Of a stretch of 64,000 nt of DNA, positions 4,727 through 47,260 are shown in pieces (positions within the stretch are counted from its first letter, which is position 1; every line of letters begins with the position of its first letter). The translations under genes and the position numbers were made by a program. A model generated the notes under the pieces. The model did not search any database. It saw only the letters and a list, made by a program, of their open reading frames with translations, and was not told where the DNA came from. The stretch is from Haematococcus lacustris. Lineage: Eukaryota; Chlorophyta; Chlorophyceae; Chlamydomonadales; Haematococcaceae. The stretch is taken from contig JASKMD010000023.1 in the NCBI GenBank assembly GCA_030144725.1, positions 697,320 to 761,319 of the forward strand, in the 5' to 3' direction.

Positions 4727-4753
4727 TGTAATGCTCCTCTTTGGGAAAAAAAA
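4727..4753 (+). terminator. LINE poly(A) signal TGTAA and A-tail
   Basis: TGTAA at 4727-4731 lies 14 bases before an A8 tail (4746-4753). TGTAA is the usual green-algal polyadenylation signal. The same arrangement is at 10292-10318 (copy C); a variant tail with GGAAAAATA follows TGTAA in copies B and E (39813-39836). Confidence 0.8.
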
Positions 4754-20800: not shown

Positions 20801-21988
20801 TGGGCCCCTGGGCTCACCTGCAGCTGGACCCTCAGGTGTGGGGCATGGGCACCACCACCCTGCTGGACTTCTCGGTCAAGCATGCCAGGGTGCGCCTCCA
20901 CCAGCTCCAGCGCGTCAGTGCCGACCCCCTGTACCCACCCAGTGGGGGCCTGTGGCCTGCGCTGTGGGGCGTGCGCCCCCCCCGGGCAGCGGGCGAACCG
21001 GATGTGGCAGCGGTGGCTGATGGGGCCCTGAGGGAGCTGGAGCTCAAGTGGGAGGCCAGCGCGCAGCAGGTGGCAGGCCAGGGGGCAGCGGGGGAGCGGG
21101 AGCAGCAGGGCAGGGATGTGGAGGAGCGGCTCCCCGAGGAGGTGCAGGGCAGCCAACCGCCTCGCTGGCTTGACACCTCCGTCAGGGCGCACCCGCGTCC
21201 CTCGCCGCAGGACAGGGCGGCCGAGGAGGCTGAGCGGCAGCTGGAGGCCCAGCAGCGGCGTGGGGGCAGGCAGCTAGTTGCTCAGCCCGCCCCCCGGGCC
21301 GACACCGTGGACCAGCTGGCTGCGGGTGTTCAGGCGGGCCAGCCGTGTGCGAAGGTGTGGAAGGAGCTGCTAAACCCCATCCTCCGTCGGGAGCACGTCA
21401 TCGTGGCCTGGCGGGTGCTTCACACCAGCCTCATGGTCGGGGCCTTGTGGGGTCACATCCTCAAGGGGGCGGCTGCCCCGGGCTCGTCCGCCTGCCGCTT
21501 CTGCCAGCCGGGGCACATGGAGACTCTTACCCACGCCTTCCTGACCTGCCCCGCCGTGGTCCCAGCCTGGGAGTGGGTGCTGAACGTGTACGGCCGCCTC
21601 ACAGGCACCCACCCCCCCTCAGGCGACGCCATGCTGCTCCTCAGTGGGCGCCCCACCCGCGGCGAGTCCCCCCCCCTTCCAGCCCCCTGACAGCCTGCTG
21701 TGCCTGCGGCTGCGCGTGGCCTATCTGGGCGCAGTGTGGCGCCTCCGCAGCTCGGGAGCCGCTTCAGCCCTGCAGCCACAGCAGGTGGCGAGGCGGGTCG
21801 TGGAGGAGGTCATCTCCACCCTCACCACGGCCGTCAAGCGTGACTGGCATCGGGTGGAGAGGGACATCCGCGTGGGCCTCTGCCGCGGTGTGCCCTCCAC
21901 CTGGTTCAAGGGCAAGGACCCGGAGCTGGACGCTCCCCACTTCGACCAGCTGTGGCCCGAGGCGTCGGGGGGCTGGTTTGCCAAGCAG
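17854..21988 (+). pseudogene. LINE ORF2 RT to zinc-finger region, copy E
   Basis: This is the continuation of copy E ORF2 after the gap: pre-RT segment (17854-17951), then after the MITE the RT (18298-19350; here the box reads EYADDLPIVV, a Thr-to-Pro change after YADD shared with copy F), thumb (19271-20119), RGG-rich linker and zf-RVT region (20113-21690, then 21644-21988). Frame changes occur near 18410, 19300, 20100 and 21670. The coding sequence breaks off at FAKQ where the CACTA element enters and resumes at 39211 (PRRERRGGQEGAE). Copies C and E are collinear through the RT at a constant 12,301-bp offset. Confidence 0.8.
17952..18297. mobile_element. 346-bp hairpin MITE, CACTA-like termini
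   Basis: The termini CACTCCTAC and GTAGGAGTG are the start of inverted repeats that extend, with mismatches, over almost the whole element, which could fold into one long hairpin. Flanks carry a 2-bp duplication, AC (17950-17951 and 18298-18299; 3 bp if the end is read one base later). Uninterrupted copies C and F give the empty site. It is AT-richer than its surroundings and has no coding capacity. The CACTC-N6-ATTAA terminal pattern is the same as in the 17.2-kb CACTA element. TCCCTGCGT half-sites lie in the inverted repeats. Confidence 0.85.
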
Positions 21989-22012
21989 CACTCGCGCCGA
22001 TTAAGGCCGGAA
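21989..22012 (+). repeat. left terminal inverted repeat of CACTA element
   Basis: Starts CACTCGCGCCGATTAAGG and pairs with the right end (39186-39208), with mismatches at a few positions. The same left end, with C-to-T at base 1, starts the derivative at 42535. Confidence 0.85.
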
Positions 22013-22140
22013 GTCGCCTACATCATTTCTCCCGGGAGACATACCGCAGATAGCCCCAGGAAAGGCCGACTCATCGCCGTTGTAATCATTGAAAAACTCA
22101 AAGTTGCTGCGATGTTATAACTATTTGAAATCCGAAAAAA

Positions 22141-22972
22141 CCCTGCGCAGGGTTTTGATGACCCTGCGCAGGGTCCTAGTGCATCGGTCATTTGCAGGGT
22201 CCTGACGACCATTTGCAGGGTCCTGGTGACCCTGCGCAGGGTCCTAGCGACCCTGCGCAGGGTCCTACTGACCTCATTTGCAGGGTCCTGTAACCCGGCG
22301 CAGGGTCCTGTCGACCCTGTGCTGGGTTCTGATGGCAGTTTTTACAGGGTCCTGCTGACCATATGCAGGGTTCTGGTGACCCTGCGCAGGGTCCTGGTGA
22401 CCCGGCGCAGGGTCCTGGCGACCCTGTGCAGGGTTCAGATGGCAGTTTTTACAGGGTCCTGCTGACCATTTGCAGGGTTCTAAAAACCCTGCGCAGGGTC
22501 CTGGTGACCCGGCGCAGGGTCCTGGCAACCCTGTGCAGGGTCCTGATGGCAGTTTTTACAGGGTTCTGCTGACCATTTGCAGGGTTCTGGTAACCCTGCG
22601 CAGGGTCCTGGTGACCCGGCGCAGGGTCCTGGCAACCCTGTGCAGGGTCCTGATGGCAGTTTTTACAGGGTTCTGCTGACCATTTGCAGGGTTCTAAAAA
22701 CCCTGCGCAGGGTCCTGGTGACCCGGCGCAGGGTCCTGGCAACCCTGTGCAGGGTCCTGATGGCAGTTTTTACAGGGTTCTGCTGACCATTTGCAGGGTT
22801 CTGGTAACCCTGCGCAGGGTCCTGGTGACCCGGCGCAGGGTCCTGGCAACCCTGTGCAGGGTCCTGATGGCAGTTTTTACAGGGTTCTGCTGACCATTTG
22901 CAGGGTTCTGGAAACCCTGCGCAAGGTCCTGGTGACCCGGCGCAGGGTTCTGGCAACCCTGTGCAGGGTCAT
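22141..22972. repeat. left subterminal palindrome array
   Basis: Repeats of the perfect palindrome ACCCTGCGCAGGGT and one-base variants (CGGCGC, TGTGCA) spaced 20-30 bp. From about 22363 they are organised in 107-bp units that alternate to give a 214-bp higher-order period. Each unit includes a GATGGCAGTTTTTACAGGG segment. In CACTA elements subterminal repeats are the binding sites for the element's accessory DNA-binding protein. Some frames are open across the array, but only because of the repeat. The stretch 22973-23270 holds nothing recognised. Confidence 0.9.
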
Positions 22973-23270
22973 GTAGACCCTGTGGAACCTGTTCCAAACC
23001 CTGCTATGCTTCCTACCATCTACCATCTACCATGATGCCAATGTTCCATGTCTTCAATGTCATGCCATATTATGCCATCCTGCAACTCTATTCATGGTAT
23101 TCACGACTGTTTGTCATGTCCTCCTAGGAATGTAAGGATGCATGCCTGTAGTGGCTGATGGCGTGACAGCGCAGCAGTCGCAGCATAGCAGCGTAGCAGC
23201 CCTAGCAGCAGCAAGAGCAGCAACAGCAATACACCAACAGCAATGTGTACCAGCTGTGATTGATGCGTGA

Positions 23271-26200
23271 TTAGCTGCGGCTGAGGCTGTGTGCAGGCAC
23301 AAAGAACATACGACCGTAGCCCTCCCCGTCCTCAAAGCTGGTCACAAAGACTGTGAAGATCTTGGTGGCATCAAACATATACCAATGCTCATCTCCATAG
23401 CCCTGGTGCATGCTGCCCATGGCTGACTGCTGCGGGCGGTCCTGAACAGGTGGAAGAGGGTCAGCCTGCCGCTGTGATGCACCGGCTGCAAGCCTCTGGG
23501 ACTTCCTGGTGCCACCTGTGGTGGCTGCCTCCGCTGCTGCCTGCTCCACCCCACGCTTTGCTGACCTGTGCTGCTGTGGCCCACCTATACCGCTTGGCCC
23601 AGCACCCCCATCTGCATCCCCGTCTCCTGGTGGCTCTCCCCCCTGGCATCCTGCCTCAGCCGCTGCTCCTGCTCCTGCTGCCTGCTGTGGCCTGGGAACA
23701 GCCTGACCAGTTGCTGCCAAACATGAGGGGTGGGATGTAGGGCGGGTCAAGTAGATGCGGCTGACTGCTAGGCGTAGGAACACCCCAGGCAGCTTGGGAT
23801 GCTCCAAACGAACCCAGAACTTCACATGGCCAGCCCAAATGGCCCACTTGTCGTCGTCGAGCCTGAACGGGATGCTGACCCAGGTGTTGTTGCGGGTTGA
23901 GGGGCGTTTGTACACACTGCTGAACACAATGGTGCCATTGCAGTCTGCTCGCTGGTAGTACCGCACTGGATACGGGGGTGCAGCGACCCGTGGAGCCTCC
24001 TTGGCCTCCTCCGCTGCCTCCCTTGCATTTAGGGCCTCACCAAACACCTGCTTGACGTGCCATGGGCGCCATGGGGTGGCCACGTCGCTCTTCTGCAGAT
24101 CCTGGACTGCCTTCATGCAGCCCCTCATCATGGCACCCGGGCTGTTCTGCAGTGGGCACTCTGCACTGCCCGCTCCCAGCAGCAGGGCCTGCTGCCCGTC
24201 CTGTGTCAGCTCGTCCTTCAGGCGGGCCTTGTAGTCCTGCTGTGCCTCCAGCTCAGCCCGGTCAAGCAGCCTCTTGCTGGCGTTATGCCCGGCCACCCGC
24301 ATGGCAATGTGGGCATCCAGCTGGGCTCCAGGAATGCCGCTGGTGGTGATGGACTTCAAGTCATGCAGGTCACGCTCGATCCAGAGCTCGCCAAACAGGC
24401 ATGTCCTGCCCACATTGTTCTCTTGCATGTACAGCCTGTGCACACCACATCCATGATACCATGTTGATGCATGGTCTGCCTGCAGCATGCATGCATTGTT
24501 GATGGGTAAGGTTGGCCTGCATGCTACTGTTTAAACTCTCACCTGCAGGCCGTTGTGTGGAGGTTTGGGCAGACTTGGTCAGTAGGCACAGACAGCTTGC
24601 CCTCGTTGTCTCCATGCGCAGCTTGAAGCAGAGGATCACGGCGGCAGCGCTCCAACCTGGCTGCATAGGTCTTCAGATGTGCATAGCCTGCCTCCATCCC
24701 CGCAGGTGTGGCGCTGTTCTCCGAGCCTGTATTGAGCAGACATTTACTCATTGTTAGGTATATGTTAGTCATCATGCAGTGGGACCGTGCCTGTAAATGT
24801 TGGTATGCAAATTACCTGGTGTCAAGTAGTGCAGCATAGCGCCCTCCAAGGCTGTCCACAACCCACGGTAGGGCTCTGGCAAAAGGTTGCCCCGCAACAC
24901 GATGGGTGAGAAGTGCACATACCAGTGCTTGTAGTCCTCCATGCGCCATCCACTGCATGATGACATGGGCATTGCAGCACCAGTGCATTGTTCAGCGTGT
25001 CATGACATGCACCTTGCATTGTCCTCATCCTTGCTTGTCAGTTGTGATATGATTATGACATACTGCACAACATGATGATGGCTTACGTGCGGTTGGCAAG
25101 GTCTCCCAGGTCCCGTCCCAAGTCAGATGGGGATTGAATGGCTGCTCCACGCTTCAGTATCTCACGCCGCACATTAATGTGAAGGCCATCTGCACTCATG
25201 AACCAATCCAGCTGGTGCTTGAGCAAGCCATACATGAAGCTGTGGTACACAGGCACCAGGTGAGCCAACCGGGCGTCCAGGTGTTGCAGCAGCAGGGGCA
25301 GGAGGGGCTGGGCGTGGCAGCCCACCACCCTAGGGTCGCCTTGAGACCACCCATGGATGAAGGGGGCACCTCGGTCCATGATCTGCTCGTGGGTGAACTT
25401 CAGGCGCACGTCATAGATGAGCACATACTCCTGCAGTCCACCACCGCAAGCAAGGATGGTGTGTGCCTAGGTATCCTCTTGTCTGATTTCAATAGCACAT
25501 GCTGTCGAGTGTGTCAAGTGTTCCATACCTGCCGGTTGGAGCCTGGTAGGGTCTGCAGCGTTGGCGAGTCGTAGCCAAGGGGCGCCTTCTCTGTAGGGGG
25601 GTTGGCGGGCTTGGTGATGTTGCAGCTGTAGCACATCTTCAGGGCGCTGTGGCCCATGCCCCTTGTCAAAGTGGCTCTACATGCACACAATCACGCAATT
25701 GCAGCCTTAATGGGTGTCATATGTTTGTGGATGGTACATGGCAGGGTACATGTTGTATAGGGATAGATTGGACTGGGAGGTGGTGGAACCACGTGTAAGT
25801 GCAAGCTGTTGGTCTTTGTCCCACTCACGTTGCTGGGGTATCAGCGATCGATACCACTGGGACTCCATGGACGCGGACAGGATCAACACGGGCAGGAGCC
25901 ACACCATCAACACCTGGGCCTGGGTGTGGCTCCACTATCACACCCAGGTCACCCGGGCCCTCGATGTGCTTGCTGACTTCCTGGCAGATGGCTTTCATGT
26001 AGCCTGTCAGGTGAGACTGGTGCTTCCCTCCGTTGATGACGGCCAACACTGAGCTGCACGCCCGCTTGCCGCACACCTCAGCCGGCACATCCAGCAGCCT
26101 CAACAGAATCACACCCACTGACCAGGTGCCGTTCTTGCCCAGGGTCATCCAGTCAACCCCAATCATGAAGTGGGCTGTGTTGGGGGAGGTGGCCACAACC

Positions 26201-27960
26201 TCTGGTAGCTTGGGCTGCATCTCTCGCCATGCAGGGCCTGCCAAACAACAACATCATGGTATGGTACATGTCACTGTACTAATCACCTGGCTATGCGGTC
26301 AATTCTATGCCAAGGTCAGCCCATGACCACTCACTTGCTCGAAATGAGCCAGGAGGTGGGTCCATGCCCCGAGCTCGCCTGAACCATGTCATCACGTCCT
26401 TGCGCTCCATGATGTTCTTCACCACTGTGTTCCAGCCGAACAGAGACATGCTCCACCTGGGCTTCAATGTGATCTCCTGTGGGCTCTCTGTAACCAAGCA
26501 AGGGACAGCATACAATACATGTATACCTCTACAAGTGTCTATAGAGCTTCACCATGCCCATGTAGATAGGTGTACCTTTTTTGTTGTTCACATGGAAGCG
26601 TGGCGTCTCACAGTAGTAGCACTTGTCTTCCTTGTGAGCGAGCCACTCAGACCTATGCATGCATGCACATGTAGGCAACCTTGACCCCAACAAACACCAT
26701 GTGTAATGCGCCATGCATGCATTGCCTAATCCCCACCCTTTCCCCTGACCTCACCGTCGTATCTTCGGGTAGGTGTAGCCTGGGCAGTACTTGTTGTTGG
26801 CCTTGTTGTCCTTGCCCGCGTTGCACACATGCACCTCGTACTCATTTGCGTGCTGGACGCCCTGCAAACTCATCAGCTGGTAGAAGCTGGTGATGAGGTT
26901 GAGATCAGGCTGGTTTGCAAGTAGCCTACGGATCAGCTTCAACACCCCCTTCATCTGCTCCTTGGTCAGCCTCATGTCCAACAGCCTGCTCAGCTCGTCC
27001 ATCATGTCCTTGCCTGTCAAGGGGCAGTTCCTGTAATGGCATGCACAATGACAAGCAACTACTATATTGAACAGCTCCCTATTTGTGATACTAATATCTG
27101 TTATTTCTAAGTACCTGAACACGGGTTCTTGAAGATTGGCATCCAGCTTGAATACCTTGCTCCGACGGGCCCTGGCGGCACCCCCCCCCCCTTCATCCCC
27201 CTCTGGACCCCCTGGGCCTCCCGGCTCTCCTGGACCCCCTGGGCCTCCCGGACCTCCTGGACCTCCTGGACCCCCGGGACCTCCTGGGTACCCATCCCCT
27301 TCCTCATCACTGTCTTCACCCCCACTGTCATCACTATCACCTCCGTCCTCTCCTCCGTCGACTCCTCCCCTCCCGTTTACACCCCCCTCTTCTCTGTCAT
27401 CACGCTGTCCCCCTCTGTTGGCCATTTCTCCCCTCCCACGCGCTTCGTCCCCTCCTCCCTGTCCCATCCCTGCACCCTCTCGAATCCTGCCCCCCTCTCG
27501 TCCCGCTGGGGCTGTCTGATTCCTGACTCCTTGCCCCTCCACAGCCACCCCTCCTCCATCTCCACATCTCCCTTGTACACATGTCGTCCCCACATGCGGA
27601 CAACATGTGGCCTGCGGTGCAAATTGGCCGCGATGATGTGCACGTATTACCTGGCAGCAAGCGCACAAGTACATCATCGCGGCCAATTTACAGCTAGTGA
27701 CATCTTACCGCCGACATATGCGACCTGTGTTGCTGTGCGCCTGCGCACTCTGCTCGTTCAGCATTAGCCAGCCATTCCTGCCAAGCTGTCTTGCCCTCAG
27801 CTCCCGCGTACTGGGGATGGCTCTTCAAACAGTGAGAGCGCATTCCATATAAGCCTCCTGACACGCCGCATACTCGGCATTGGAATGCTGTCTGGACCGT
27901 GATTGCCTGTGTCTGAGGAAGCCTGGTTAGCAGGTGGTCGCATCGTGTCCGTTGGGCCAT
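23271..27960 (-). CDS. CACTA/EnSpm (TNP2-like) transposase, multi-exon
   Basis: Phase-consistent exons on the minus strand: ...-27115, 27030-26755, 26652-26576, 26487-26335, 26237-25829, 25676-25530, 25430-25087, 24952-24816, 24726-24543, 24435-23271, all GT-AG. The likely start is ATG 27960. The N-terminal exon has a C2H2-like finger (CRVCGVSGG ... HCLKSH); the exon(s) at about 27.12-27.6 kb encode an acidic, then Gly/Pro-rich linker whose 5' border I could not fix. Family features: CYYCETPRF, then the transposase core with MIGVDWMTLGKNGTWSVGV (first catalytic Asp candidate) and KMCYSC, then YHSFMYGLLKHQLDW, then the TNP2/DUF4218-like block HWYVHFSPIVLRG, then a C-terminal domain. Expected role: cutting the CACTC ends and strand transfer. 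No in-frame stop was seen in these exons, so it may be intact. Confidence 0.8.
27621..27689. repeat. 19-bp perfect inverted repeat, 31-bp spacer
   Basis: AAATTGGCCGCGATGATGT at 27621-27639 is repeated inverted at 27671-27689. It lies in or beside an early transposase intron and could form a hairpin in the pre-mRNA. Function unknown. Confidence 0.8.
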
Positions 27961-28109
27961 CGCGGCCCGCTGTGAGTGTACCCACCCGGCGTCGCTTGCT
28001 GCTCGACAATGTGACTTTTGGTTCACAGTGGCTCGGACGATAACTTGTGAGTAAGCACCCCTACTCCGTCTTGTGATCGCATACACTGCACTTAACAACA
28101 TCTGTGAAA
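27961..28109. promoter_or_regulatory. divergent promoter region, transposase and accessory gene
   Basis: About 150 bp separates the probable transposase ATG (27960, minus) from the accessory-gene ATG (28110, plus), so both genes should share one bidirectional promoter. No TATA box was identified with confidence. If the transposase began at the upstream ATG (28101), the two genes would almost abut. Confidence 0.5.
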
Positions 28110-30692
28110 ATGTACCGCAAGACGCTCACCAAGAAGGGGGCCTACACTAAGCCAGTCTTCAAGAGGGTGCGGTGATGCGTGAATCTATTGCATCCTGTCG
28201 TGTCTCATCGAACCATCCACCATAATGTATCCGTGAACATCATGTATGCGTCGGTGCTGCAGATCAAGGCTGCTACCCCACCCCCATCCGAATCAGAACA
28301 TGAGTCTGCTGATGAGCCATTGGCTCAGCGATCAAGGCGGCGGATCATTGAGGACGATGCTGCAGACTCACCCCCCGCCGACCCATCCAGTGATGGGGTG
28401 GATGAGGGTGAGGGTGAGGGTGAGGGTGAGGATGAGGATGAGGATGAGGGCGAGGAGGAGGATGAGGAAGAGCAGCAGGTGCATGCCAAGGAGCAGGAGC
28501 AGGGTTCAGCCAGCAAGCAGCGGCGTCGAAAAGGGAGGATGGTCCCCGATGAATTCAGCAAGAGCGTCTTAACGGTGGTGAGCATGTTGTTGTGACCCTA
28601 TGACGCATGTGTTGCATATGTGTGGTGCATGTGACGCAATGTCCGTTGATCACCATGACCCATCGTGTTTCCATGATTACAGTACAAACATCATGCACCC
28701 GATGCCAAGCATCCCTTCAGCGAGTTGGGCAAATTTGAGGTGAGTGGCATTGCTCACACAACATCCCGCCATAGGAGCCAATGTCAATACTCATATTATC
28801 ACCGTGTTGCCTGTTTTTGCTGATCCCTGCAGCAAGATGCAGCCCAGTTTTGGAAAAAGCACTGTGCTGAACGCATCCGGACTTGGTGCCCGCGTTCCGT
28901 GGGTCAGGTGATTGTGATGTTGATGGTCTTGCCATATCTACAACATGCCATGATCAGTGATGTGTATTTATGTTTCTGCCGTGTACATGTGGTGTGTCTT
29001 GCAGTACACCATCCAGAAGTGTGCCCTCGGGGAATACCCCGCACTCCGCAGCAATGTGCCGGAGGCCAGATGGCTCGCTGCCATTCGGGCCACTATTGGC
29101 TTCATCTGGGAGAAATTCAAGGAAGCCAAGGTACCCTACCTGGCCCTGCTTTCCTACTGGATGTTGCTGTGCGCCTTCAAGCGGTGGGTGGCATCATACC
29201 TTGCATGCATCTCCAACTGCCGCGGGCACCCCCAACAGTAGCATGCATTCCAACTGTGCACCACGGGGACACACGGTTTTACCAGCGCATGTCCTCGTTT
29301 TCCCTCACACATAGGTCTTACGATGCTGTGAGACAGAAGAGCACTCCTAAGGGCATGGCGAACAGGACACCCGGTGAGATAGCAAATGGCGTGAAGTCAG
29401 ACGAGGCGTGGGAGGAGGGGTTTGGTCGCCATTTGTTGGCAGGCAAGGCAGCGGCCGCAGCTGCTGGCAAGCCTTTCGCCAATGACGATGTGGAGTTCCC
29501 GGACATGACGCCCTATCTGGCCTTGGCTGCTGAGCTGAAAGCAGACTCGGGTGAGTGATTGGGCCTGCACGGTAGACAGGACCCTGCGCAGGGTCACATG
29601 GACCCTGCGCAGGGTTGTCAGGACCCTGCGCAGGGTTGTCAGGACCCTGCGCAGGGTTGCCAGGACCCTGCGCAGGGTTGTCAGGACCCTGCGCAGGGTT
29701 GCCAGGACCCTGCGCAGGGTTGCAGGACCCTGTGAGGCACCCATCCGAGGCTGTGTGCCGGGACACTGCCTTGCATCGTTATCGCAGATAACTGGCGTGC
29801 ACCCAAGAAGACGTCAGCAGCCCAGCACCCCGAAGCTGCCCAGGCCTGGCAAGCAATGTCGGAGATGTTCTTCAGCCAGTTCGAGAATGTGGCACGGGAC
29901 CTGTCCGGCTCTATCCCACGCAGCAGCACCACAGACCGGGTGCGTATTTGGTTGTGAGGCAGGTAGGTGTTGGTTATGGTGGATGAGAGTTTATATGATG
30001 TAGGTATCAGATTGTGAGGCAGGTAAAAGTGGTTGTGGATGTAGGTCGCGGCTGTAATGGTTGGCTTACTGCTGTGCAGGTGGCGGCGGAGGCGCAGGCC
30101 AAGAAGCTGCTGTTGGAGGCCTGCACCAAGGACCAAACCACCTGGCAGGCAAGTTGACCATACCCTACCTTCATACCCTACCCTGCACCTTACTCTACCT
30201 ACACTTGCTGGTCGCAGGTGAAGCACATGGCCATCCTGGTGGGGTACAAGGAGCGGCTGGAGCGTCAGTGGGAGGCTGGCAGCAGTGCTGGCCAGCAGGC
30301 TGGTCCAGCTTCACCCCCCCAGCGAAGGGGCAAGGCGGCTGCAAAGGCAGCTCAGCCCCCGTCAGCTGCAGCCAAGAAGCTGAGGCTGAAGAGGAAGGCC
30401 GACCAAGAAGCGGATGCCCATGCAGATGACCGCGCTGTGGCGCTGCTGACAGGCTTGGCTGCAGGGGCAGCAGGGACTGCTGGGGCACGGGCAAAGGTAG
30501 CAGGGGCAGCAAAGGCAGCAGGGGCAGCAGCAAAGGTAGCAGGGGCAGCAGCAAAGGTAGCAGGGGTAGCGGGGGCAGCAGCAAAGGTAGCAGGGGCAGC
30601 AAAGGCAGCAGGGGCAGCAGGGGCTGTGCGAGCAGACTCAGCAGGGGCAGCAGGGGCAGTGGCAGCAGGGGCAGCAGGGGCAGCAGGGGCTG

Positions 30693-30770
<78 letters not shown>

Positions 30771-30934
30771 GAGCGGCAGGGACAGCTGGGGCAGAGGCAG
30801 GGGCTGGGGTGGAGGCTGTGGCTGGGGTAGGGGTAGGGTCTGAGGCTGGGCCAGGGGCGGCTGGGGCAGCAGATGCAGATGATGAGGAGGCGCCCCCCGT
30901 TGTGGCGGTGGCGGACTTGTATGATGCCCGGTGA
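28110..30934 (+). CDS. CACTA accessory protein (candidate TNPA-like), 9 exons
   Basis: Exons 28110-28166, 28263-28577, 28683-28739, 28833-28907, 29005-29183, 29315-29550, 29788-29939, 30080-30148 and 30218-30934 join in phase to give 618 residues. All introns are GT-AG except the last, which is GC-AG (GCAAGT donor). The protein starts MYRKTLTKKGAY (basic). It has an acidic D/E-rich segment with an SRRR cluster before it (exon 2), a central Trp-rich region (FWKKHCAERIRTWCP, IGFIWEKFKEAK), a helical region rich in Ala/Gln, and a C-terminus with Lys/Arg clusters plus a 26-residue-class poly-Ala tract. No known domain is recognised. Position beside the transposase, as with TNPA in plant En/Spm, suggests a subterminal-repeat-binding accessory protein; this is inference. 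Intron 6 contains a palindrome array. Confidence 0.65.
29578..29733. repeat. palindrome array inside intron 6 of the accessory gene
   Basis: Seven perfect copies of ACCCTGCGCAGGGT at a ~21-bp period (about two helical turns), separated by CACATG, TGTCAGG or TGCCAGG linkers, followed by one decayed copy. The intron is 29551-29787. Confidence 0.9.
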
Positions 30935-31362
30935 CAGCTCCTTCTATTTAGCTGTGACGCTTCGTGGACACCGGATGTAAGGCGCTACACAAGAATCATG
31001 TTACAGGGTTTAGATTTGTCTGGTTGACAACAGACCGTGACCGTCTCCACATGTAACAGGAGCACCAACAACATTGTCCACCGTCAGTGTACTTTCAAAT
31101 GGTCTTCATGCCACACATACCCACAATTGACCCCAAGGCATGGGGCATGGCACATAGCAACGTTGCACCCCATCAGTGTGGTTCCATGTGTCACCCTGTC
31201 CGGCACAACTATTGCTAGGCCTCATCACGTCACTCTGCGTGATAGCTCACAGTGCCACCGGGTGCCAGGCTGCGCTTGAAGAGGTTCTCTGACCAGCAGT
31301 AGAGAGGCCTTGTGCACCCGGCGAACGTAACCTCAGCACACCCAGCCCTTCACCCGTCAGCT
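30935..31362 (+). other. 3' UTR and intergenic region
   Basis: TGTAA at 30976-30980 lies 42 bases after the accessory-gene stop and is its likely poly(A) signal. The rest, up to the first F-box-like gene, is unremarkable; no palindromes and no coding signal were seen. Confidence 0.5.
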
Positions 31363-32685
31363 ATGTCTCACCACACCCAGCTCCTCGATTTGCCTAGCGC
31401 TGTCCTGGCGCTCATAGCACGGTCCGTCACTTCAGCCCCTGCCGCGCAAGCATTTCGTCTAGCCTGTAAAACCACTCTACTCGCGAGTCTAGAAACCTGC
31501 CCGAAGTTGGTCCTGCGACTGGACAGCACAAAAGTCAGCCGTTTCCTGACGCCAGCTGCCCGCGCGGTCTTGCGAGCAAGGGAGCAGCCGTTGCAGCTGC
31601 AGCTGCTATGGAACGAGCCTGGGCCAAGACACAACATACCTGACATGCTGCGGTTTGTGATCGGGCTGCTGTGGGGCTGCACGGCCGTGCATGAGGTGGT
31701 GCTGGACGGCCGTGGTTTTGGAAATGGAGAGCTGGGTGCCTGGCTAGGAGCCACCTTGGCTGACAGCTTCCCCAACATGGACTCCCTCACCCTGGCTTTC
31801 GGCATGAGCTATGAAGCGTTAGCCCGCCTCCTATCCGACACAGCTTTGAAGGCACAGCTACGCCATGTAGACATCAGCCAGGCATTTCTCCACAGCCCTG
31901 GCAAGTCAGCGTTCTACAGGGAAGCTGTCAGCCTCCACTCGCTGCAGATGGACCTCCTGGACCCCCCTGATGAGTCTTTGCATGATCTGCCATGCCAGTG
32001 GCGCACGCTGCGTGTGGGCAAGGCAGACATTGACCATTTGAGCAAGCTGCCCCTGCATGCTGTGAGGGAGGCGGTGCACATTGACAGACTGCGTGTGGTT
32101 GCAAGGGCTGACGACCTGGCTGAAATCACAGCCGGTGCCTCATGCTTTGCTGTGGGCGTGCCTGTCAGGCCCAAGGTAGACGTTTTGCGTGTCGACATTG
32201 TTGACACATCTGATGAGGAGCTGGCCGTTCTGGCTGCATTGCAACCCTTGGCAGGGTGCATTCGCGTGGTGGATGTTGTGTGTGGTGATTGGAATGATGA
32301 AGATGACATCCAGGAGTTTGATGCTGATGTCATGGAGGCCTTGCTCCCGGTGTGCCAGGGCTGCAGTGAGTTGCGCATCAGGATGGCTTCACTGCAGCCC
32401 AGCCCTCAGATGTGGCACGCCATTGTGGATCGCGTCCCCTCCATTGCAAAGGTGCACATCCACCAGTGCTACGAGCTTTATGAGGATGTGCTGTTGTTCA
32501 TGGAGGAGTATGTGGAGGAGCATGGAGGTAGGGACATCGACATACAAATCGATTACTTCCTGACGTCCCCAATGGGGGCCCAAGAGGATCTGGGTGACTG
32601 CGATCTGTCTGATTATCAGTTTGGGCCACTGCGTGTGAGCATGCAGGAGATGGACTGGTATGACAGCGTTTTCGACCGACCCTAA
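31363..32685 (+). CDS. F-box/LRR-like protein 1, transposon cargo
   Basis: A single-exon frame of 440 residues. I chose ATG 31363 because the protein then starts MSHHTQLLDLPSAVLAL, aligned with MSRATQLLDLPIELL of the paralogue at 33270; both resemble the Leu-Pro start of an F-box. The rest is a series of irregular Leu-rich repeats (for example LRHVDISQAFL and VDVLRVDIVDTSDEEL). Known F-box/LRR proteins pick substrates for SCF ubiquitin ligases; here that is inference, since the F-box is weak. TGTAA follows the stop by 22 bases (32708-32712). Lying between the accessory gene and the dioxygenase gene, inside the transposon, it looks like captured cargo. An alternative is a CACTA-specific protein of unknown role. 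Confidence 0.6.
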   Translation: MSHHTQLLDLPSAVLALIARSVTSAPAAQAFRLACKTTLLASLETCPKLVLRLDSTKVSRFLTPAARAVLRAREQPLQLQLLWNEPGPRHNIPDMLRFVIGLLWGCTAVHEVVLDGRGFGNGELGAWLGATLADSFPNMDSLTLAFGMSYEALARLLSDTALKAQLRHVDISQAFLHSPGKSAFYREAVSLHSLQMDLLDPPDESLHDLPCQWRTLRVGKADIDHLSKLPLHAVREAVHIDRLRVVARADDLAEITAGASCFAVGVPVRPKVDVLRVDIVDTSDEELAVLAALQPLAGCIRVVDVVCGDWNDEDDIQEFDADVMEALLPVCQGCSELRIRMASLQPSPQMWHAIVDRVPSIAKVHIHQCYELYEDVLLFMEEYVEEHGGRDIDIQIDYFLTSPMGAQEDLGDCDLSDYQFGPLRVSMQEMDWYDSVFDRP

Positions 32686-33269
32686 GATCACTTGGGCTTC
32701 GACTAACTGTAAGCCCTGTCACCGACCCTGGGATCCATCCATCCTGACAACCCTGCACTGGGTCCTGCAACCCTGCGCAGGGTCCTGACAACCCTGCGCA
32801 GGGTCCTGGCAACCCTGCGCAGGGTCCTGGTGACCCTGCGCAGGGTCCTGGCAACCCTGCGCAGGGTCCAGGCAACCCTGCGCAGAGTCCTGGCAACCCC
32901 GATTTTGGCACAGGGAGTTGGCACCTACTGACCAGAGCGGCTTTTAATGCCATGTGACACGGGCGGTTAAGAGGAAGCAGGAGAACTACAAAACACAACC
33001 TCCGTCATTTCCTGCCACACCACACTAGCACACTGCTGAGGAATAATGAGAACCAAGGGGGAAATACACTATATCCACTCGCAGTTCAGACCATGCTGTA
33101 AGATGGGTAGAACACACACTGTGCAGTAACCATGGCGCGCGCGACCAAATTGATGGACGAGTTTAGAACGATGCTCATGAGTACCCAGAACCCCAAATAC
33201 AAATCTCCATGCCAACTACCAGTACAAAATAAACACAGAATTGGGTCGAACACACACAGCGCATCACTA
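32686..33269 (+). other. intergenic region with palindrome array and duplicated gene start
   Basis: The poly(A) signal of F-box-like gene 1 is followed by a palindrome array, then by AT-richer sequence. At 33099-33160 the 5' region of F-box-like gene 2 occurs in a first, diverged copy (GGGTAGAACACACAC ... ATGGCGCGCGCGACC) 138 bp before the proper one (GGGTCGAACACACAC ... ATGTCGCGCGCTACC). Confidence 0.6.
32746..32900. repeat. palindrome array between the F-box-like genes
   Basis: Five perfect copies of ACCCTGCGCAGGGT plus diverged copies at both edges, spaced about 22 bp with CCTGACA, CCTGGCA or CCTGGTG linkers. Confidence 0.9.
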
Positions 33270-34547
33270 ATGTCGCGCGCTACCCAGCTGCTTGACCTCC
33301 CAATTGAATTGCTGTCAGAAGTATCCCGGAATGGCGGGCAGGCCTTCCCCCTCATCAACAAACGGTGTCTTGCTCTTACACCCTACGTCGCTCCCAAATT
33401 CACAATTGACATCAACGCGCCCACCATCAGTTTGGGGACAGAGAAGGCATTGCGAGGGCGACAACAACCATTCACATTGACACTGTACCAGAGGAGTAAA
33501 GCAGACAGCGCGGAGGCTGCGGACATGTTGTACAACACCATGAACCTCGTGGGAGTGTGCGCCTCCGTCACAGCAGTGGAGTTCAGCGACTTCGATTGCG
33601 CGGCCGTGGCGATAGATCCCCACCTGACACAAAAGCTGATAGACAGCTTCCCAGCCTGCCACCGGCTGTCCATTATCGGCTATTTAGTGATGGCGGATGA
33701 CCTCAGCTGCCTGCTCAGCCACAGCAAGGGACACATCAAACAGCTGGACATCCGCGGTGGCGGCCCTAGGAACAATGTGATTGGAGACATGTGGGCGTGT
33801 GTTGGGTCAGCTATGCACCTGGCCCACTTGGATGTTTGGGACGTGGGTGAACCTACCCACTCACTGCGTGGGGTGGCTTGTCAGTGGGAGGTGGTCAGGG
33901 TTGCAGAGATGCAGCTCAGGCATGCGGCCAGCCTCCCACTCCAATCTTCCACACAGCTCACGGTGGATGTGCTGCACGTGGACCTCGATGCACGAGACAT
34001 GCCACATATATCCACCGCAGTGTCCAGCCTCATCACAGACAGCTCAGTGAAGCCAACCATTGGGAAGCTGACTCTAAAATACATGTGGACATCAGCGGAG
34101 GGGCAAGCAGCAATGGCAGCACTTCAGCCCATGGTGGGGTACTACGAGGAGGTGGATGTGCACCTGGGGGAGGAAACCTGGGAGAATGGGTACGTCATCA
34201 TGCTCAGTGTCAGCGTGATGAACGCCTTGGTGCCATTGCTACAGCAGTGTGCCCGTGTCAGGGTCATTGGAGGCAGTGTGGGGCCACGGTTGGAGTGGCT
34301 ACAGGTCTTGTTTAGGAGCATGGCACCTAGGGCTGTGAGGGTAGACATTGTGCATTGTAAGGGTGCATGCGAGCGTGTGGTAGCAGAGGAATTGGTGTCA
34401 TTGTTTGCAGCATCTGAGTCAGTGCAGTTCACAATGACCCTCTCTTCTCCACGGGGTTGGGTGTACGAAGGGCCATCCATATTGAATGCCCTGCTAGAGG
34501 CATCAGGGGCTGATCGGCACCTTACATTCAAGGAGGCATTCGAATAG
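33270..34547 (+). CDS. F-box/LRR-like protein 2, paralogue of 31363-32685
   Basis: A single-exon frame of 425 residues. The frame is open further upstream to ATG 33132, but the alignment with protein 1 (TQLLDLP at the same distance from Met) favours 33270; the 33132 start would add 46 residues whose first part (MARATKLMDEF) is a duplicate of the true start. The N-terminal F-box-like segment is followed by Leu-rich repeat-like stretches (LTQKLIDSFPACHRLSI, IKQLDIRGG, MHLAHLDVW). The two paralogues share layout more than sequence, so the duplication is old. TGTAA at 34568-34572 follows the stop by about 20 bases. A role in ubiquitin-dependent control of host or transposon proteins is possible but unproven. 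Confidence 0.6.
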   Translation: MSRATQLLDLPIELLSEVSRNGGQAFPLINKRCLALTPYVAPKFTIDINAPTISLGTEKALRGRQQPFTLTLYQRSKADSAEAADMLYNTMNLVGVCASVTAVEFSDFDCAAVAIDPHLTQKLIDSFPACHRLSIIGYLVMADDLSCLLSHSKGHIKQLDIRGGGPRNNVIGDMWACVGSAMHLAHLDVWDVGEPTHSLRGVACQWEVVRVAEMQLRHAASLPLQSSTQLTVDVLHVDLDARDMPHISTAVSSLITDSSVKPTIGKLTLKYMWTSAEGQAAMAALQPMVGYYEEVDVHLGEETWENGYVIMLSVSVMNALVPLLQQCARVRVIGGSVGPRLEWLQVLFRSMAPRAVRVDIVHCKGACERVVAEELVSLFAASESVQFTMTLSSPRGWVYEGPSILNALLEASGADRHLTFKEAFE

Positions 34548-34715
34548 CTAGATGCCCCTGGGCCTGGTGTAACAAGACAACTGCCCCAATGTCCCCCACC
34601 TTTCAATGCCTAGACTAGACCGTGAGAATTCAATACTGTGCATGAAGTCATAACACCAAATCGAGCAAACTTCGAATCGCTACATAACGAAATACTTTAC
34701 ACCACCACAAAGCCA

Positions 34716-37700
34716 ATGGAGACAGCTACTGAGGCGATGAAGCGAGTCATGCCTATCTTCTGGCCTCGATTCGCCGTGCCGAACCAAGTGCGTCAGCACT
34801 TACAGCGAATGATGTTGCGGGATGTAGAAGAATCAAACCATTCAATACATGGCAAGCAGGAGGCGACGGCATTGGCCCCCATGTCAGAGCGGGTCAAACT
34901 AATAGCAGCTGGAGTGGCGTTGAGCCAGGACACAGCAAAGAAAGTCACCATGACTAAAGACGACCTATTTCAGTTTGTGTACAGGTAGGAAGCACGCCAA
35001 CCATGATGCTGAGTATGTTACGCCCGCTTTAACCCAGTCACTTCTTTCACAGGTCATGGGAGGATACTTCATATCCAGCGTCCACAAACAACCGAGCACA
35101 GTGGCAGGGGTTGCAAGCATTCTTCGCCACAAAATGGCTAGCAGCGCAGCAACAGTTCGTGAACCTGCAGGCAATGTACTGCAAAGGTATTGAAGGAGTG
35201 CCATGCAAACAAGCAAGCACACCCCCATACAGTTGCCAATAGTACTTGCCTAACGTAAGCGAACTGGACTTATCTTACCTTCATCCAAACGACATACTCA
35301 TGTGCATACCTACTAATCCAGCCTGCAATGTCATGCTGGCTGCACGCCTGCAGCCAAAGTCGACCAGGACTTGCCTGATGAGTACCTGCAGCTGAGGCAG
35401 ACATGCAAGAACCAGTGGCAAAGGATGACTCCAGACACTCCGTCAAGCCAACAGGGCATCTCACAGGTTACTTCGGCCACATCCACTCAGCAGCAATTAC
35501 AGACGCTGCAGCAGGAGCAAGGCCAGGAGCAGGGGCAGAGGCAGGTGCAGCAGGGGCAGCAGGGGCTGTGGCAGCAGCAGCAGCAGCAGCAGACGCAGCA
35601 GCAACAGGAGCGGCAGGGACAGCAGCAACAGCCTCAGGGTCATGGGCAGGAGCAGCAAGAAGGGCAGGGGCAGCAGCAGCAGCAGCAGCAGCAGCGGCAG
35701 CAGCAGCAGACATCAGGGCCAGCTGCACCATGGCCCACATCTGCAGGCACTTCCAGGGTAACAGCTACACCTGAGGGGTCAGCAGCAGCAGCAGGGGCAA
35801 ATGCGGTTAGACAGCATGTTCAGGCTGGCTTGTCTTCAGCTGCAAAGAAGAAGAGAACAGAGCAAACCTCTGAGACGCAGGTGCAAAAAGGCAATGGGCC
35901 TATTTATGGCGTGACGTGAATGTCGTGCTTTGGTACACGTGTTTTGCATGCATTGGTACAGGTCACACATTACAAGCATTTGTTCACGGGCCATGATCAT
36001 GTACATTTGCCATGAATCACAGGCTAAAATACGTACGTGAGAAGAATTGTAATGGCAAATGCATACAATTAATGAGTGAACTTACGTTTCACGTATACCT
36101 ATGATGCGTGTGTATTGCAGGCACAACCACAAGAAGAGACAAAGGAGAAGATCCATGACCTGGAACAAGAGCTCCAAAACCTCAAGGTAAGAATCAAAGC
36201 ATAAATTGAACAATAACAATGGATAAAGAGCTTGCTACTACTACTTGGATCGCAGGCAATGATCAGCATGATGGCGACAGGTACAGCAGGCACATCCAAA
36301 CCACAGGTGAATGTTGGTGGTGTCATATACGCGGTAGTGATTAGGAATATTAGGACACAGCAACAAGGCACCAGGACCCTGCACAGGGTCACCAGGACCC
36401 TGCGCAGGGTCACCAGGACCCTGCGCAGGGTCACCAGGACCCTGCGCAGGGTCACCCAGGACCCTGCACAGGGTCACCAGGACCCTGCGCAGGGTCACCA
36501 GGACCCAGCACAGGGTCACCAGGACCCAGAACAGGGTCACCAGGACCCAGCACAGGGTCACCAGGAACAAGCACAGGGTCACTAGGACCCTACACAGGGT
36601 TACCAGAACCCTGCACAGGGTCTTAAGCACCTGCAATATTCATCGGCATTCACGGTCTACAAGTACTAATAATCCAACAGGCAATCACATAGACCTACGT
36701 TGCATACATGCAGGCTGGCACAGAAGTCTTCCTCCAGCCAGTACAGGCGTGGAACTTCCCCATGAACATGCGGGTGCGTTAATGGCAACAAATCTGCAGC
36801 AGCAGGAGCAGCAGAGCACACAATGAAATCACATCTTATGCACGTGCAGGGCACAGTGTTCCAGCAGCCAACGTACAAGGCATACCCTGGCAAGGTCTTC
36901 AAGCAAGGCCAGGAGGCTCAATGCAGGAACGAAGCGCTGGCCGCAGGGCTGACAGTGTATCAGCTGCCACAGGACGTCCTTCCTGTGTTGGAGGTGGTGA
37001 TGGCCATCATCTACATAACCCGGGTGTACTGCAGCTTGATTTTCAGCTCAGTGCGGCCTCAACAAACCCCGAAGCAACGCACGGAGTACATCACGCAGTA
37101 TGGCACTGGTCAGAGGCTGCAGGTGCTGTTGGCCAAGTCACCCTCAGGCAAGCTGGACCTGACCTTCAAAACCCTCAACAACGCTGACACCAAAGCTATC
37201 AACGACCAACTGACGGATGCGCAGAAAGCCGAGGTGAGACGTGACAAGATTTCTGAAGTTAGCACACAGCAACGATTGCAAAACAGCACACATCTTAAAA
37301 TAAACATTCACACCAAATACCAATCACTTCAGACCATATTCACATGTGTGTTACATGCAGGTACAGAAGCACAAAGAAGTCCTGACAAAGTACTTCACGC
37401 GCTTGCTACCCGTCTTGGTGAAGCTGCTAGACAGGCCTATCAATGCCTTGGCAACCATCATCAACGACCCAGTCAACAAGAGAAAGATGGTTGGAGAGGG
37501 AGATGAGCAAGAAATGCTCATTGAGCCAGCGCAGCATGCAGCCCCTCCCCAGGCCCCCCACACTGACTTCAAACCAATGGCGTCGTGCCTGGACGACGGC
37601 TTTGTCTTCCTGTTGGCATGCCAGGACTTCGACTTGGTTGCCTACATGTACAGCCACTTGCTCATGGAGCATGCAGCGCAATACTACAAAAACGGCAACC

Positions 37701-38050
37701 CGGACTTGCCTAGCCTGACAGCCATAGCCACCCACGCACTGCTGCGTGAGGGCACCCTTGTTCAGGTGAAGGCTGGACAGCTGGTGCTGTTCCGAGGCAA
37801 CACCGTGCATGCAGGGACAGCGGGCAGGCAAGACTCATGCGGCGCCAGGCTGTATGGCTTTGGCAAGACAGGCCAGCCAGCAGACAACACTACAGTCAAT
37901 ATGTCCCAGCTTGGCGCCGTGTTCGAAGGTCTCTTCCAGCCAACACAGGGAGGGACCATCACAGCCCAGACAGGGGAATGGAACAGGAGGGGGCAGGCTG
38001 GCAGGATGGTGCCTGACACGGAGCCATATGAGCCTTCTGATGGGATCTGA
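34716..38050 (+). CDS. 2-oxoglutarate/Fe(II) dioxygenase-like protein, 8 exons
   Basis: Exons 34716-34984, 35053-35186, 35354-35880, 36121-36186, 36256-36306, 36714-36773, 36850-37233 and 37361-38050 join in phase with GT-AG introns to give 726 residues. Exons 1-2 are Trp-rich and helical; exon 3 is a Gln-rich low-complexity region with a KKKR cluster; exon 4 encodes a short coiled coil (EKIHDLEQELQNLK). The last exon has the facial triad of the superfamily: HTD (His 37559-37561, Asp 37565-37567) and, 83 residues on, FRGNTVHAG (distal His 37808-37810), then ARLYGF (Arg 37847-37849) suited to bind 2-oxoglutarate. The substrate is unknown; such enzymes hydroxylate or demethylate nucleic acids, proteins or small molecules. 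TET/JBP-type DNA dioxygenases occur in some transposons, but I cannot show kinship with them. Intron 5 holds a palindrome array. Confidence 0.7.
36373..36630. repeat. palindrome array inside intron 5 of the dioxygenase-like gene
   Basis: A ~21-bp period of ACCAGG plus ACCCTGCGCAGGGTC. The first copies are near perfect, later ones decay (CCCAGCACAGGG, CCCAGAACAGGG). The intron is 36307-36713. Confidence 0.9.
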
Positions 38051-38216
38051 ACAAACAGTCAGCATGGTTGAGGTTGCAAAACGCATGCATGTATGTTGCA
38101 AAGACACTGATGAGGACTTCATGGCTTAGTTATAATGCCTAACATGCCCGGACACACAGTATGTAGATTGCGTCACAGTGTCGCCAGGAATCTACACAGG
38201 GTTCTGGCACACGGGG

Positions 38217-38900
38217 TAAGATGATACACCACACGGTCCCATGGACCCTGCGCAGGGTTTTCAGGACCCTGCACAGGGTCGCTTGAACCCTGCGCAGGGT
38301 CCTAGCGTCACCCTGGTCGTAGGACCCTGCGCAGGGTCCTGGCACACAGGGTCAGCAGGACCCTGCGCAGGGTTTCCAGGACCCTGCGCAGGGTCTGTAG
38401 GACCCTGCGCAGGGTCCTAGCGTCACCATGGTCGTAGGACCCTGCGCAGGGTCCTGGCACACAGGGTCAGCAGGACCCTGCACAGGGTTTCCAGGACCCT
38501 GCGCAGGGTCCTGGTGACCCTGCGCAGGGTCCTAGCGTCACCATGGTCGTAGGACCCTGCGCAGGGTCCTGGCACACAGGGTCAGCAGGACCCTGCACAG
38601 GGTTTCCAGGACCCTGCGCAGGGTCCTGGTGACCCTGCGCAGGGTCCTAGCGTCACCATGGTCGTAGGACCCTGCGCAGGGTCCTGGCACACAGAGTCGG
38701 GAGGATACCAAACAGAAACGACAGGACCTAGCAAAGGGCCTGCGGGAAGCCTGACAAGGTCCTGGCACACAGGGTCAGAACAAAACCTGGAAAACTCTTG
38801 ACTCATAGGGTCAGTAGGACCCTGCGCAGGGTCGCCAGGACCCTGCGCAGGGTCCTACGACCATGGTGACGCTAGGACCCTGCGCAGGGTCCTAGGACAC
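38217..38900. repeat. right subterminal palindrome array
   Basis: Many copies of ACCCTGCGCAGGGT and variants, grouped into longer units that contain TCCTAGCGTCACCATGGTCGTAGG and CTGGCACACAGGGTCAGCAGG, repeated several times with about 120-bp spacing. Near 38850 one unit is inverted relative to the others. It mirrors the left array. Confidence 0.9.
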
Positions 38901-39208
38901 GGGCCATAGCTCATCACTGGCTTGGATTTTTTGCATGCTACCTACTAGGTTGGGCACCTGTAACCACCCTCTACAACCTCTCATACTCACATTTCATGAA
39001 AAGACACTTTGATCACTCGGTGCCAACTCCCTTAGCCAAAATCAGGGTCACAGCCCCACACCTGGTCCAACAACTCGACACCGAGTGAGAATTACACTTT
39101 GGCCCAAGAGAGTCTTGACCTCCCCTAGGTCTCAACAACCTACATGCCAAGTGTCAGACCTGAACTCTCAAGTTTTTCAAGCCAGCCAGCCCTTAATTTG
39201 CACGAGTG
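38901..39208. repeat. right terminal region and inverted repeat of CACTA element
   Basis: About 300 bp of unique terminal sequence ending in the inverted repeat 39186-39208 (GCACGAGTG at the tip). The same ~300 bp is present with few changes at 42560-42863 in the small derivative. No palindromes and no gene. Confidence 0.85.
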
Positions 39209-39210
39209 AG

Positions 39211-42800: not shown

Positions 42801-42868
42801 GCCAAGTTTCAGACCTGAACTCTCAAGTTTTTCAAGCCAGCCAGCCCTTAATTTGCACGAGTGCAACG
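39837..42868 (+). mobile_element. LINE copy F, 5'-truncated, carrying a CACTA derivative
   Basis: It starts directly at the copy E tail at the same internal LINE position as copy C. It covers the pre-RT region (TAG at 40127-40129 as in copy C), RT (40139-40528, 40452-41465), thumb (41386-42270) and the start of the linker region (42228-42532). Frame changes are at the same places as in copy E, including the five-C run near 42208 (six C in copy C). It is interrupted at 42534 by the 329-bp derivative and then runs into the N gap. Confidence 0.85.
42535..42863. mobile_element. 329-bp deletion derivative of the CACTA element
   Basis: The left ~28 bp of the 17.2-kb element is joined, through a short ACCAGGACC remnant, to its right ~300 bp. 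The target duplication is CA (42533-42534 and 42864-42865). The first terminal base is T instead of C. It has no palindrome array and no gene; it could have been moved in trans by the CACTA transposase. Confidence 0.85.
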
Positions 42869-46300: not shown

Positions 46301-47260
46301 CCGCCTCGCTGGCTTGACACCTCCGTCAGGGCGCACCCGCGTCCCTCGCCGCAGGACAGGGCGGCCGAGGAGGCTGAGCGGCAGCTGGAGGCCCAGCAGC
46401 GGCGTGGCGGCAGGCAGCCAGTTGCTCAGCCCGCCCCCCGGGCCGACACCGTGGACCAGCTGGCTGTGGGTGTTCAGGCGGGCCAGCCGTGTGCGAAGGT
46501 GTGGAAGGAGCTGCTAAACCCCATCCTCCGTCGGGAGCACGTCATCGTGGCCTGGCGGGTGCTTCACACCAGCCTCATGGTCGGGGCCTTGTGGGGTCAC
46601 ATCCTCAAGGGGGCGGCTGCCCCGGGCTCGTCCGCCTGCCGCTTCTGCCAGCCGGGGCACCTGGAGACTCTTACCCACGCCTTCCTGACTTGCCCCGCCG
46701 TGGTCCCAGCCTGGGAGTGGGTGCTGAACGTGTACGGCCGCCTCACAGGCACCCACCCCCCCTCAGGCGACGCCATGCTGCTCCTCAGTGGGCGCCCCCC
46801 CCGCGGCGAGTCCCCCCCCTTCCAGCCCCCTGACAGCCTGCTGTGCCTGCGGCTGCGCGTGGCCTATCTGGGCGCAGTGTGGCGCCTCCGCAGCTCGGGA
46901 GCCGCATCAGCCCTGCAGCCACAGCAGGTGGCGAGGCGGGTCGTGGAGGAGGTCATCTCCACCCTCACCACGGCCGTCAAGCGTGACTGGCATCGGGTGG
47001 GGAGGGACATCCGCGTGGGCCTCTGCCGCGGTGTGCCCTCCACCTGGTTCAAGGGCAAGGACCCGGAGCTGGACGCTACCCACTTCGACCAGCTGTGGCC
47101 CGAGGCGTCGGGGGGCTGGTTTGCCAAGCAGCCTAGGAGGGAGCGGAGGGGAGGGCAGGAGGGGGCAGAGGGGAGGGTTGGGGCAGGAGGAGTGGAGGAG
47201 GAGAGGGCAGCAGGGAGGCCTAGGCAGGGGGAGGGCAGGGCGCAAGGGGGGGAGAGCTAG
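43369..47260 (+). pseudogene. LINE ORF2, copy G
   Basis: RT segment 43592-44494 (DLAGAYDNVSW, EYADDLTIVV), thumb 44415-45299, and an uninterrupted 667-residue C-terminal segment 45257-47260. The latter contains the RGG-type linker (about residues 180-210), the PRWLDTSVRAHPRPSP block, and the zf-RVT-like motif CRFCQPGHLETLTHAFLTC. Frame changes near 43550, 44460 and 45230 match those in copies E and F, so the copy is not active as it stands. The copy has the canonical YADD followed by Leu-Thr. The ORF ends GRAQGGES at 47260; copies A and C read through to PVEPA because of an altered G-run. Confidence 0.8.

Follow-up and report, generated by a model that had tools for sequence, protein, structure and literature searches.

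The locus described here raises the question of whether a dioxygenase gene lying inside a transposon is a stray host gene or a working part of that transposon. The window analyzed, the whole stretch of 64,000 nucleotides from the green alga Haematococcus lacustris (contig JASKMD010000023.1, positions 697,320 to 761,319), contains a large CACTA-type element that carries, in addition to the genes of a transposase and an accessory protein, the gene of a PhyH-like dioxygenase and two genes of leucine-rich-repeat (LRR)-like proteins, together with five arrays of a short palindrome (Table 1). We tentatively favor, at slightly less than even confidence, a reading in which the dioxygenase is a component of the transposon that would counter silencing at the arrays, rather than a stray host gene. 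It is suggested by the recurrence of other parts of the element beside the dioxygenase in public gene models, as well as by the preservation of the putative catalytic blocks.

The element and its insertion site

The element is a recently inserted transposon of the CACTA type (CMC clade). Its 18-bp terminal repeats, both starting with CACTCG, agree at 15 positions, a level reached by 6 of 200,000 random pairs of 18-mers drawn from the window. The insertion site can be compared with an uninterrupted copy of the same long interspersed nuclear element (LINE), which matches RVT_1 with an E value of 7.2e-20. The empty site reads GCCAAGCAGCCTAGG, whereas the occupied site reads GCCAAGCAG, then the element, and then AGCCTAGG, revealing a 2-bp duplication, AG. 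The repeats and the empty site bear out the CACTC termini, the borders, and the AG duplication restoring the LINE, all of which had been proposed from the sequence in the original prediction. The interrupted and the empty copy share 99.2% identity, so that the LINE was young and the insertion of the element is younger still.

A 329-bp deletion derivative, located in another copy of the LINE, bears both ends of the large element and a CA duplication of its own, and the two ends of the large element therefore belong together; their origin from different insertions, named in advance as fatal to the prediction, is contradicted by this derivative. Within its left part of ~27 bp, 26 positions are identical to the large element, and the right 294 bp are 98.6% identical, with the derivative starting with TACTC where the large element has CACTC (first base T, not C). 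Its flanks are CCCCA and CAACG, compared with GGGCCCCAACGG, which is the reading in two of the three other LINE copies compared at this site, the third having GGGCCCCCACGG. The derivative may have moved in its short form, or it may have lost its middle after landing. Copies lacking the cargo, the other outcome that was to count against the prediction, are represented within the window only by this non-coding derivative. At both insertions the duplication (AG or CA) comprises 2 bp, which fits the range of the CACTA/EnSpm clade but not the canonical length, since 3 bp is typical of EnSpm and 2 to 5 bp of the wider clade, according to the accessible part of PMC12730594.

The LINE copies at 5314–10131, 18298–21988, 39209–42534, and 43369–47566 are clustered and 96–99% mutually identical, with the RVT_1 match at 43559–44491, and the family is recently active, to judge from the likeness of its copies. 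Two runs of exactly 500 N, at 17354–17853 and 42869–43368, are assembly gaps, one of them a few bases past the 329-bp derivative.

Genes and palindrome arrays

All five genes, spliced manually with GT–AG introns and one GC–AG exception, are free of internal stops. They fit the layout predicted at the outset, namely a multi-exon transposase gene divergent from a nine-exon accessory gene (their starts lie 149 bp apart on opposite strands) and three further genes within the same borders. The element is probably autonomous.

Homologues of the transposase number 21, among 7,996 scored candidates sharing most words, and 20 of them are named H. lacustris. In the region of residues 240–1060, the public models P0060–P0064 cover 96–99% at 82–95% identity and P0068 covers 99% at 68%. 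An alignment that takes in 14 of the 21 homologues has, as read by eye, the motif order D / D / CxxC / H / E (GVDW, IADTPA, CYSCN, YHSFMYGLLKH, and GELWIER); the H(3–4)H spacing is not evident in it. Pfam gave no transposase or DUF4218 match for single exons, for spliced models (residues 1–407 of the accessory protein, with the dioxygenase run as two pieces), or for the transposase alignment. The labels "TNP2-like" and DUF4218 predicted for this protein thus stand on the motif order read by eye. Independent public models agree with the transposase exons from approximately residue 250 onward, whereas the first 250 residues and, for the dioxygenase, exons 2 and 5 come from the manual reading only. 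In P0076 (884 residues, H. lacustris), a C-terminal transposase piece (~55% identical) is joined to an LRR-domain (PF23598) protein that does not match either LRR-like gene of the element.

Pieces of the accessory protein (residues 1–49 and 96–292) recur at 48–60% identity in P0012, P0047, P0048, P0052, and P0053, with the start and first junction echoed, by eye, in P0012, P0048, and P0052.

The two LRR-like proteins are 29% identical to each other. Their 13 homologues, found among 7,995 scored candidates sharing most words, are all named H. lacustris, and P0078–P0080 have the same length of 440 residues as the product of LRR-like gene 1, to which they are 88–93% identical. The structure model of the latter (predicted local distance difference test, pLDDT, 80.6) shows a leucine-rich-repeat fold. 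Both genes had been predicted to be F-box-like and to act in protein turnover. The Pfam F-box profile matched neither single exons nor spliced models of the element, none of 15 members of the family, and none of four N-terminal pieces at E ≤ 10, which leaves a resemblance of motif seen by eye and gives no support to the turnover role as worded. The more specific proposal that these proteins are F-box receptors, through which the ubiquitin system would receive a silencing factor of the host, is doubtful. A tandem pair exists elsewhere too, as P0082 (754 residues, H. lacustris) consists of two proteins of this family in a row.

The palindrome ACCCTGCGCAGGGT (14 bp, at most two mismatches) has 68 occurrences in the element and none in the rest of the 64-kb window. 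One of the 68 is a stray, and the other 67, of which 41 are exact, make up five arrays; the five arrays foreseen in the original prediction are confirmed by this count. The outermost two arrays, with 24 palindromes on the left and 19 on the right, correspond to the subterminal repeats characteristic of CACTA/EnSpm elements.

The PhyH-like dioxygenase and its relatives

The N-terminal half of the dioxygenase has a glutamine-rich stretch, and exon 8 holds the H-x-D, H, and R blocks. As HTDF, GNTVHAG, and ARLYG, these blocks are present in the copy carried by the element and in 54 of 59 homologues, and by analogy they would correspond to the iron triad HxD...H and the downstream arginine, that is, to catalytic residues. 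Fifty-eight of these homologues were found at E ≤ 0.01, all named H. lacustris and up to 99% identical, and the 59th came via the transposase search. Together with the names of the transposase and LRR homologues, this points to H. lacustris, or at most a close ally, as the most likely host. For residues 355–726 the identity is 99% in P0002 and 95% in P0003 and P0004. Compared by eye, P0002 supports exons 4, 7, and 8 in full, exon 1 almost completely, and the greater part of exon 3, with exons 2 and 5 absent from it, and P0003 and P0004 support exon 6.

The predicted dioxygenase is PhyH-like, with a better profile match in its relatives than in this copy. The PhyH profile reaches 16.6–16.8 bits for the latter, below the Pfam cut-off of 22, whereas it was found at E ≤ 0.1 in every one of the 30 homologues, out of 58, that entered the alignment, at best with 1.7e-6, and PF05721 is precomputed on 34 of the 58. 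The 2OG-FeII_Oxy profile suggested for this gene matched neither single exons nor spliced models. Among viral contigs and prokaryote genomes, 12 pattern matches each were obtained, none of them confirmed by tblastn. One model, P0005 (484 residues, H. lacustris), runs from the dioxygenase into a hAT dimerization domain, probably through a nested element or a fusion in annotation.

Linkage of the dioxygenase in public gene models

The proteins of the window were compared with 89 fetched proteins, comprising 59 with a dioxygenase match, 18 with a match to the transposase only, and 12 with a match to the LRR-like proteins only. In five of the 59 (P0012, P0047, P0048, P0052, and P0053), a piece of the accessory protein precedes the dioxygenase on its strand, although this piece is short in P0053 (35 residues) and P0048 (49). 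In these five models the dioxygenase is only 45–49% and the accessory pieces are 48–60% identical to their counterparts here, and the former value makes the pairing look old within the host. LRR-like gene 1 lies ahead of the dioxygenase in one of the 59, P0003, which represents a cluster of 11 member sequences.

The arrays can be followed in the same models, which were seen as protein and not as array DNA, through QDPV repeats, the expected reading of CAGGACCCTGTG. A translated array with at least four QDPV is found in 36 of the 59 dioxygenase models, following the enzyme on its 3' side in 35 of them and flanking it in the remaining one, compared with one of the 18 transposase-only models and none of the 12 LRR-only models. 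The 3' position mirrors that of the right-hand array of the element, and the complete order of accessory piece, dioxygenase, and array recurs in P0012, P0047, P0052, and P0053. The predicted cargo thus extends beyond one copy and, on these translated sequences, is probably not an accident of it; with accessory pieces, LRR-like gene 1, and 3' arrays beside it, the dioxygenase looks like kept cargo. P0003 (766 residues, H. lacustris) joins LRR-like gene 1 to exon 6 of the dioxygenase, and since the donor CGT/GTGAGC of LRR-like gene 1 in the window matches this joint, a joint transcript is possible in the present element too.

Three further models, P0039, P0058, and P0074 (3 of the 59), hold transposase pieces on the strand of the dioxygenase, whereas the two genes lie here on opposite strands, and their transposase is 85–94% but their dioxygenase 42–48% identical to that of the element. 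They could represent neighboring elements, swapped cargo, or another layout. As neither strands nor identities fit, these fused models were set aside as support for linkage, which lowered our confidence in an anti-silencing role of the dioxygenase and slightly raised that in the two alternatives that follow.

The first is that the dioxygenase and LRR-like genes were captured from the host and do nothing for the element. Gene capture by DNA transposons is common, the LRR gene is tied to the dioxygenase in only one of the 59 models, and the models with transposase pieces are discordant in layout. The assemblies of H. lacustris are also rich in repeats, with 47.3% repeats and 50.8% transposable elements given in the parts of PMC7617258 and PMC10400597 available to us. 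Against a passenger stand the joint occurrence of the diverged dioxygenase with accessory pieces in five models, the catalytic blocks kept in 54 of 59, and the five genes that are all open in this copy; nor did any of the 58 dioxygenase and 13 LRR matches (the latter among the 7,995 candidates scored) come from another named organism. We consider capture without function rather unlikely.

The second is that the 17-kb unit is a composite, formed by nesting or fusion of at least two elements whose former subterminal regions survive as the internal arrays. Three of the five arrays are indeed internal, and nesting is common in this genome, as indicated by models fused to retroelement or hAT domains. 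In turn, the element contains no internal terminal repeat within three mismatches, two of the internal arrays lie inside introns of open genes, and the order from accessory piece to array is repeated in the four models named above. Such an origin is highly improbable.

Proposed role and comparison with known systems

In the reading that we prefer, the transposase would cut at the terminal repeats, and the accessory protein encoded divergently from it, which probably corresponds to TNPA of maize, would bind the palindrome arrays. The dioxygenase would be brought to the arrays directly or via the accessory protein and, by removing or altering a silencing mark at these sites, would keep the genes of the element on. 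The two LRR-like proteins would most likely be protein adaptors that assist the element against the host in this contest. The half of this scheme in which the accessory protein reads the arrays is taken from En/Spm biology; the half in which the dioxygenase counters silencing is inferred from the linkage, from the kept catalytic blocks, and from the fungal and VANC precedents discussed below. The original interpretation is thus supported in part, as regards a single element with five genes and a cargo that recurs beyond this copy; its further suggestions, that the dioxygenase may act on DNA or chromatin marks and that the whole may form a self-contained regulatory system, are possibilities.

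Several observations weigh against this role. The linkage was read from automatic gene models, some of them fused to retroelement or hAT domains, and 20 of the 59 dioxygenase models are without any linked part, besides the three with the discordant transposase described above. TET/JBP in Pfam matched none of the 30 aligned dioxygenase members at E ≤ 0.1, and the PhyH-like group is not known for acting on DNA. No credible solved relative of the enzyme was found by sequence, and the AlphaFold2 model of P0002 has a mean pLDDT of 39. The 329-bp derivative is devoid of palindrome arrays, which may therefore not be needed for movement. Finally, the observed/expected ratio of CpG drops only slightly, being 0.467 in the element vs 0.489–0.515 in the flanks, which is too weak for use as a footprint of methylation.

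A further alternative is that the dioxygenase hydroxylates a protein instead of nucleic acid, the candidates being the transposase, the accessory protein, and factors of the host that act in chromatin or silencing, with the LRR-like proteins bound to the same partner. In its favor are the assignment by Pfam to PhyH and not to TET/JBP and an LRR fold suited to protein binding. The arrays 3' of the dioxygenase would be expected whatever the substrate and are uninformative here. We regard a protein substrate as quite unlikely.

Plant En/Spm elements encode TNPA and TNPD, carry subterminal repeats, and give rise to deletion derivatives. The present element resembles them in its transposase and accessory gene, subterminal arrays, and deletion derivative, but differs in the divergent transcription of the first two, in its three extra genes, and in a duplication of 2 bp instead of the usual 3 bp. 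A soybean CACTA element is reportedly 20.5 kb long. The premise of the original prediction, that CACTA elements usually encode a transposase plus one accessory protein, is fair, although larger ones are in print: in the red alga Chondrus crispus, as described in the portion of PMC6431247 at hand, large En/Spm families measure 16–20 kb and have 4–5 open reading frames. The likeness to these oversized algal elements with several extra genes concerns size and number of reading frames only, and the same text has no match for "dioxygenase".

A closer parallel in cargo is found in fungi, where EnSpm/CACTA, Plavaka, and KDZ transposons are TET/JBP-positive, some with CAC..GTG termini, and where the dioxygenase is kept across families and, in the author's view, counters silencing (PMC12730594, in the sections accessible). 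Both systems are DNA transposons with a dioxygenase gene beside the transposase, but here the enzyme is PhyH-like, the host is a green alga, and LRR-like genes and palindrome arrays are present; "F-box", "PhyH", and "chlorophyt" have no match in the available text of that paper.

The VANDAL elements of Arabidopsis are Mutator-type, and their VANC proteins are not known to be dioxygenases. These proteins bind tandem repeats in non-coding parts of their own VANDAL copies and remove silent marks, as reported in the accessible part of PMC10398659. We propose an analogy with them, in that a transposon protein would be bound to its own tandem repeats in the service of anti-silencing.

We can speculate further that CACTA transposons of green algae took up, on their own, an oxygenase of PhyH type, outside the TET/JBP family, for use against silencing under the guidance of sequence. 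The accessory protein and the arrays would serve as the address, the oxygenase would edit a mark of the host at this address, and the LRR-like pair would disable a host factor. This extended version is unlikely as a whole, yet if true it would represent a third, convergent solution beside the fungal TET/JBP transposons and plant VANC. Should the oxygenase protect the element, a PhyH-like enzyme would be acting on a silencing mark, an activity for which this group is not known, and oxygenases would have been taken up against silencing by transposons more than once. For annotators, many gene models of Haematococcus called PhyH are probably transposon genes. H. lacustris is an alga of industrial use, in which the idea could be tested directly. 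A literature search, judged by title or the start of the abstract and covering subscription papers thinly, gave among its top matches no dioxygenase-bearing CACTA element of Haematococcus or of another green alga, and "CACTA" has no match in the accessible text of the two Haematococcus genome papers (PMC7617258 and PMC10400597).

Coordinates and other features of the window

Table 1. Positions of the element, its parts, and the sequences used for comparison, numbered from the first nucleotide of the window.
Feature	Position	Strand	Description	Basis or remark
CACTA-type element, whole	21989..39208	.	17,220 bp, no N	Termini, 2-bp AG duplication, empty LINE site
Left terminal inverted repeat	21989..22006	+	CACTCGCGCCGATTAAGG	Such ends, at up to 3 mismatches, are borne by just two elements of the window
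Right terminal inverted repeat	39191..39208	-	Reverse-complemented, CACTCGTGCAAATTAAGG	Ends at 39208
Target duplication AG	21987..21988 (left copy), 39209–39210 (right copy)			Compared with empty site 47130–47131
Array 1, left subterminal	22140..22990	.	24 palindromes, 9 exact	Built of 21-bp and 107-bp tandem units
Transposase gene	23271..27960	-	11 exons, 1213 amino acids	Spliced model, homologues
Accessory gene	28110..30934	+	9 exons, 618 amino acids, one GC–AG intron	Spliced model, recurring pieces
Array 2, in intron 6 of accessory gene	29571..29740	.	7 palindromes, all exact	
LRR-like gene 1 (F-box-like N-terminal motif)	31363..32685	+	Single exon, 440 amino acids	
Array 3, between LRR-like genes 1 and 2	32740..32905	.	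7 palindromes, 5 exact	
LRR-like gene 2	33270..34547	+	Single exon, 425 amino acids	471 amino acids if started from the upstream ATG at 33132
PhyH-like dioxygenase gene	34716..38050	+	8 exons, 726 amino acids	Spliced model
Array 4, in intron 5 of dioxygenase gene	36369..36625	.	10 palindromes, 4 exact	
Array 5, subterminal on the right, immediately 3' of dioxygenase gene	38200..38910	.	19 palindromes, 16 exact	
Deletion derivative of the large element, 329 bp	42535..42863	+	Left ~27 bp and right 294 bp	Own CA duplication
LINE copy without insertion (empty-site control)	43369..47566	+	5' side cut by N gap	

Elsewhere in the window, a 2.4-kb stretch is duplicated at 2880–5314 and 8445–10879 with 99.6% identity, the two copies being 5.6 kb apart, which reflects either a recent duplication or an effect of assembly. 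Approximately nine copies of a 228-bp tandem unit, made up of two 114-bp halves and rich in A and C on the plus strand, occupy positions 57388–59415.

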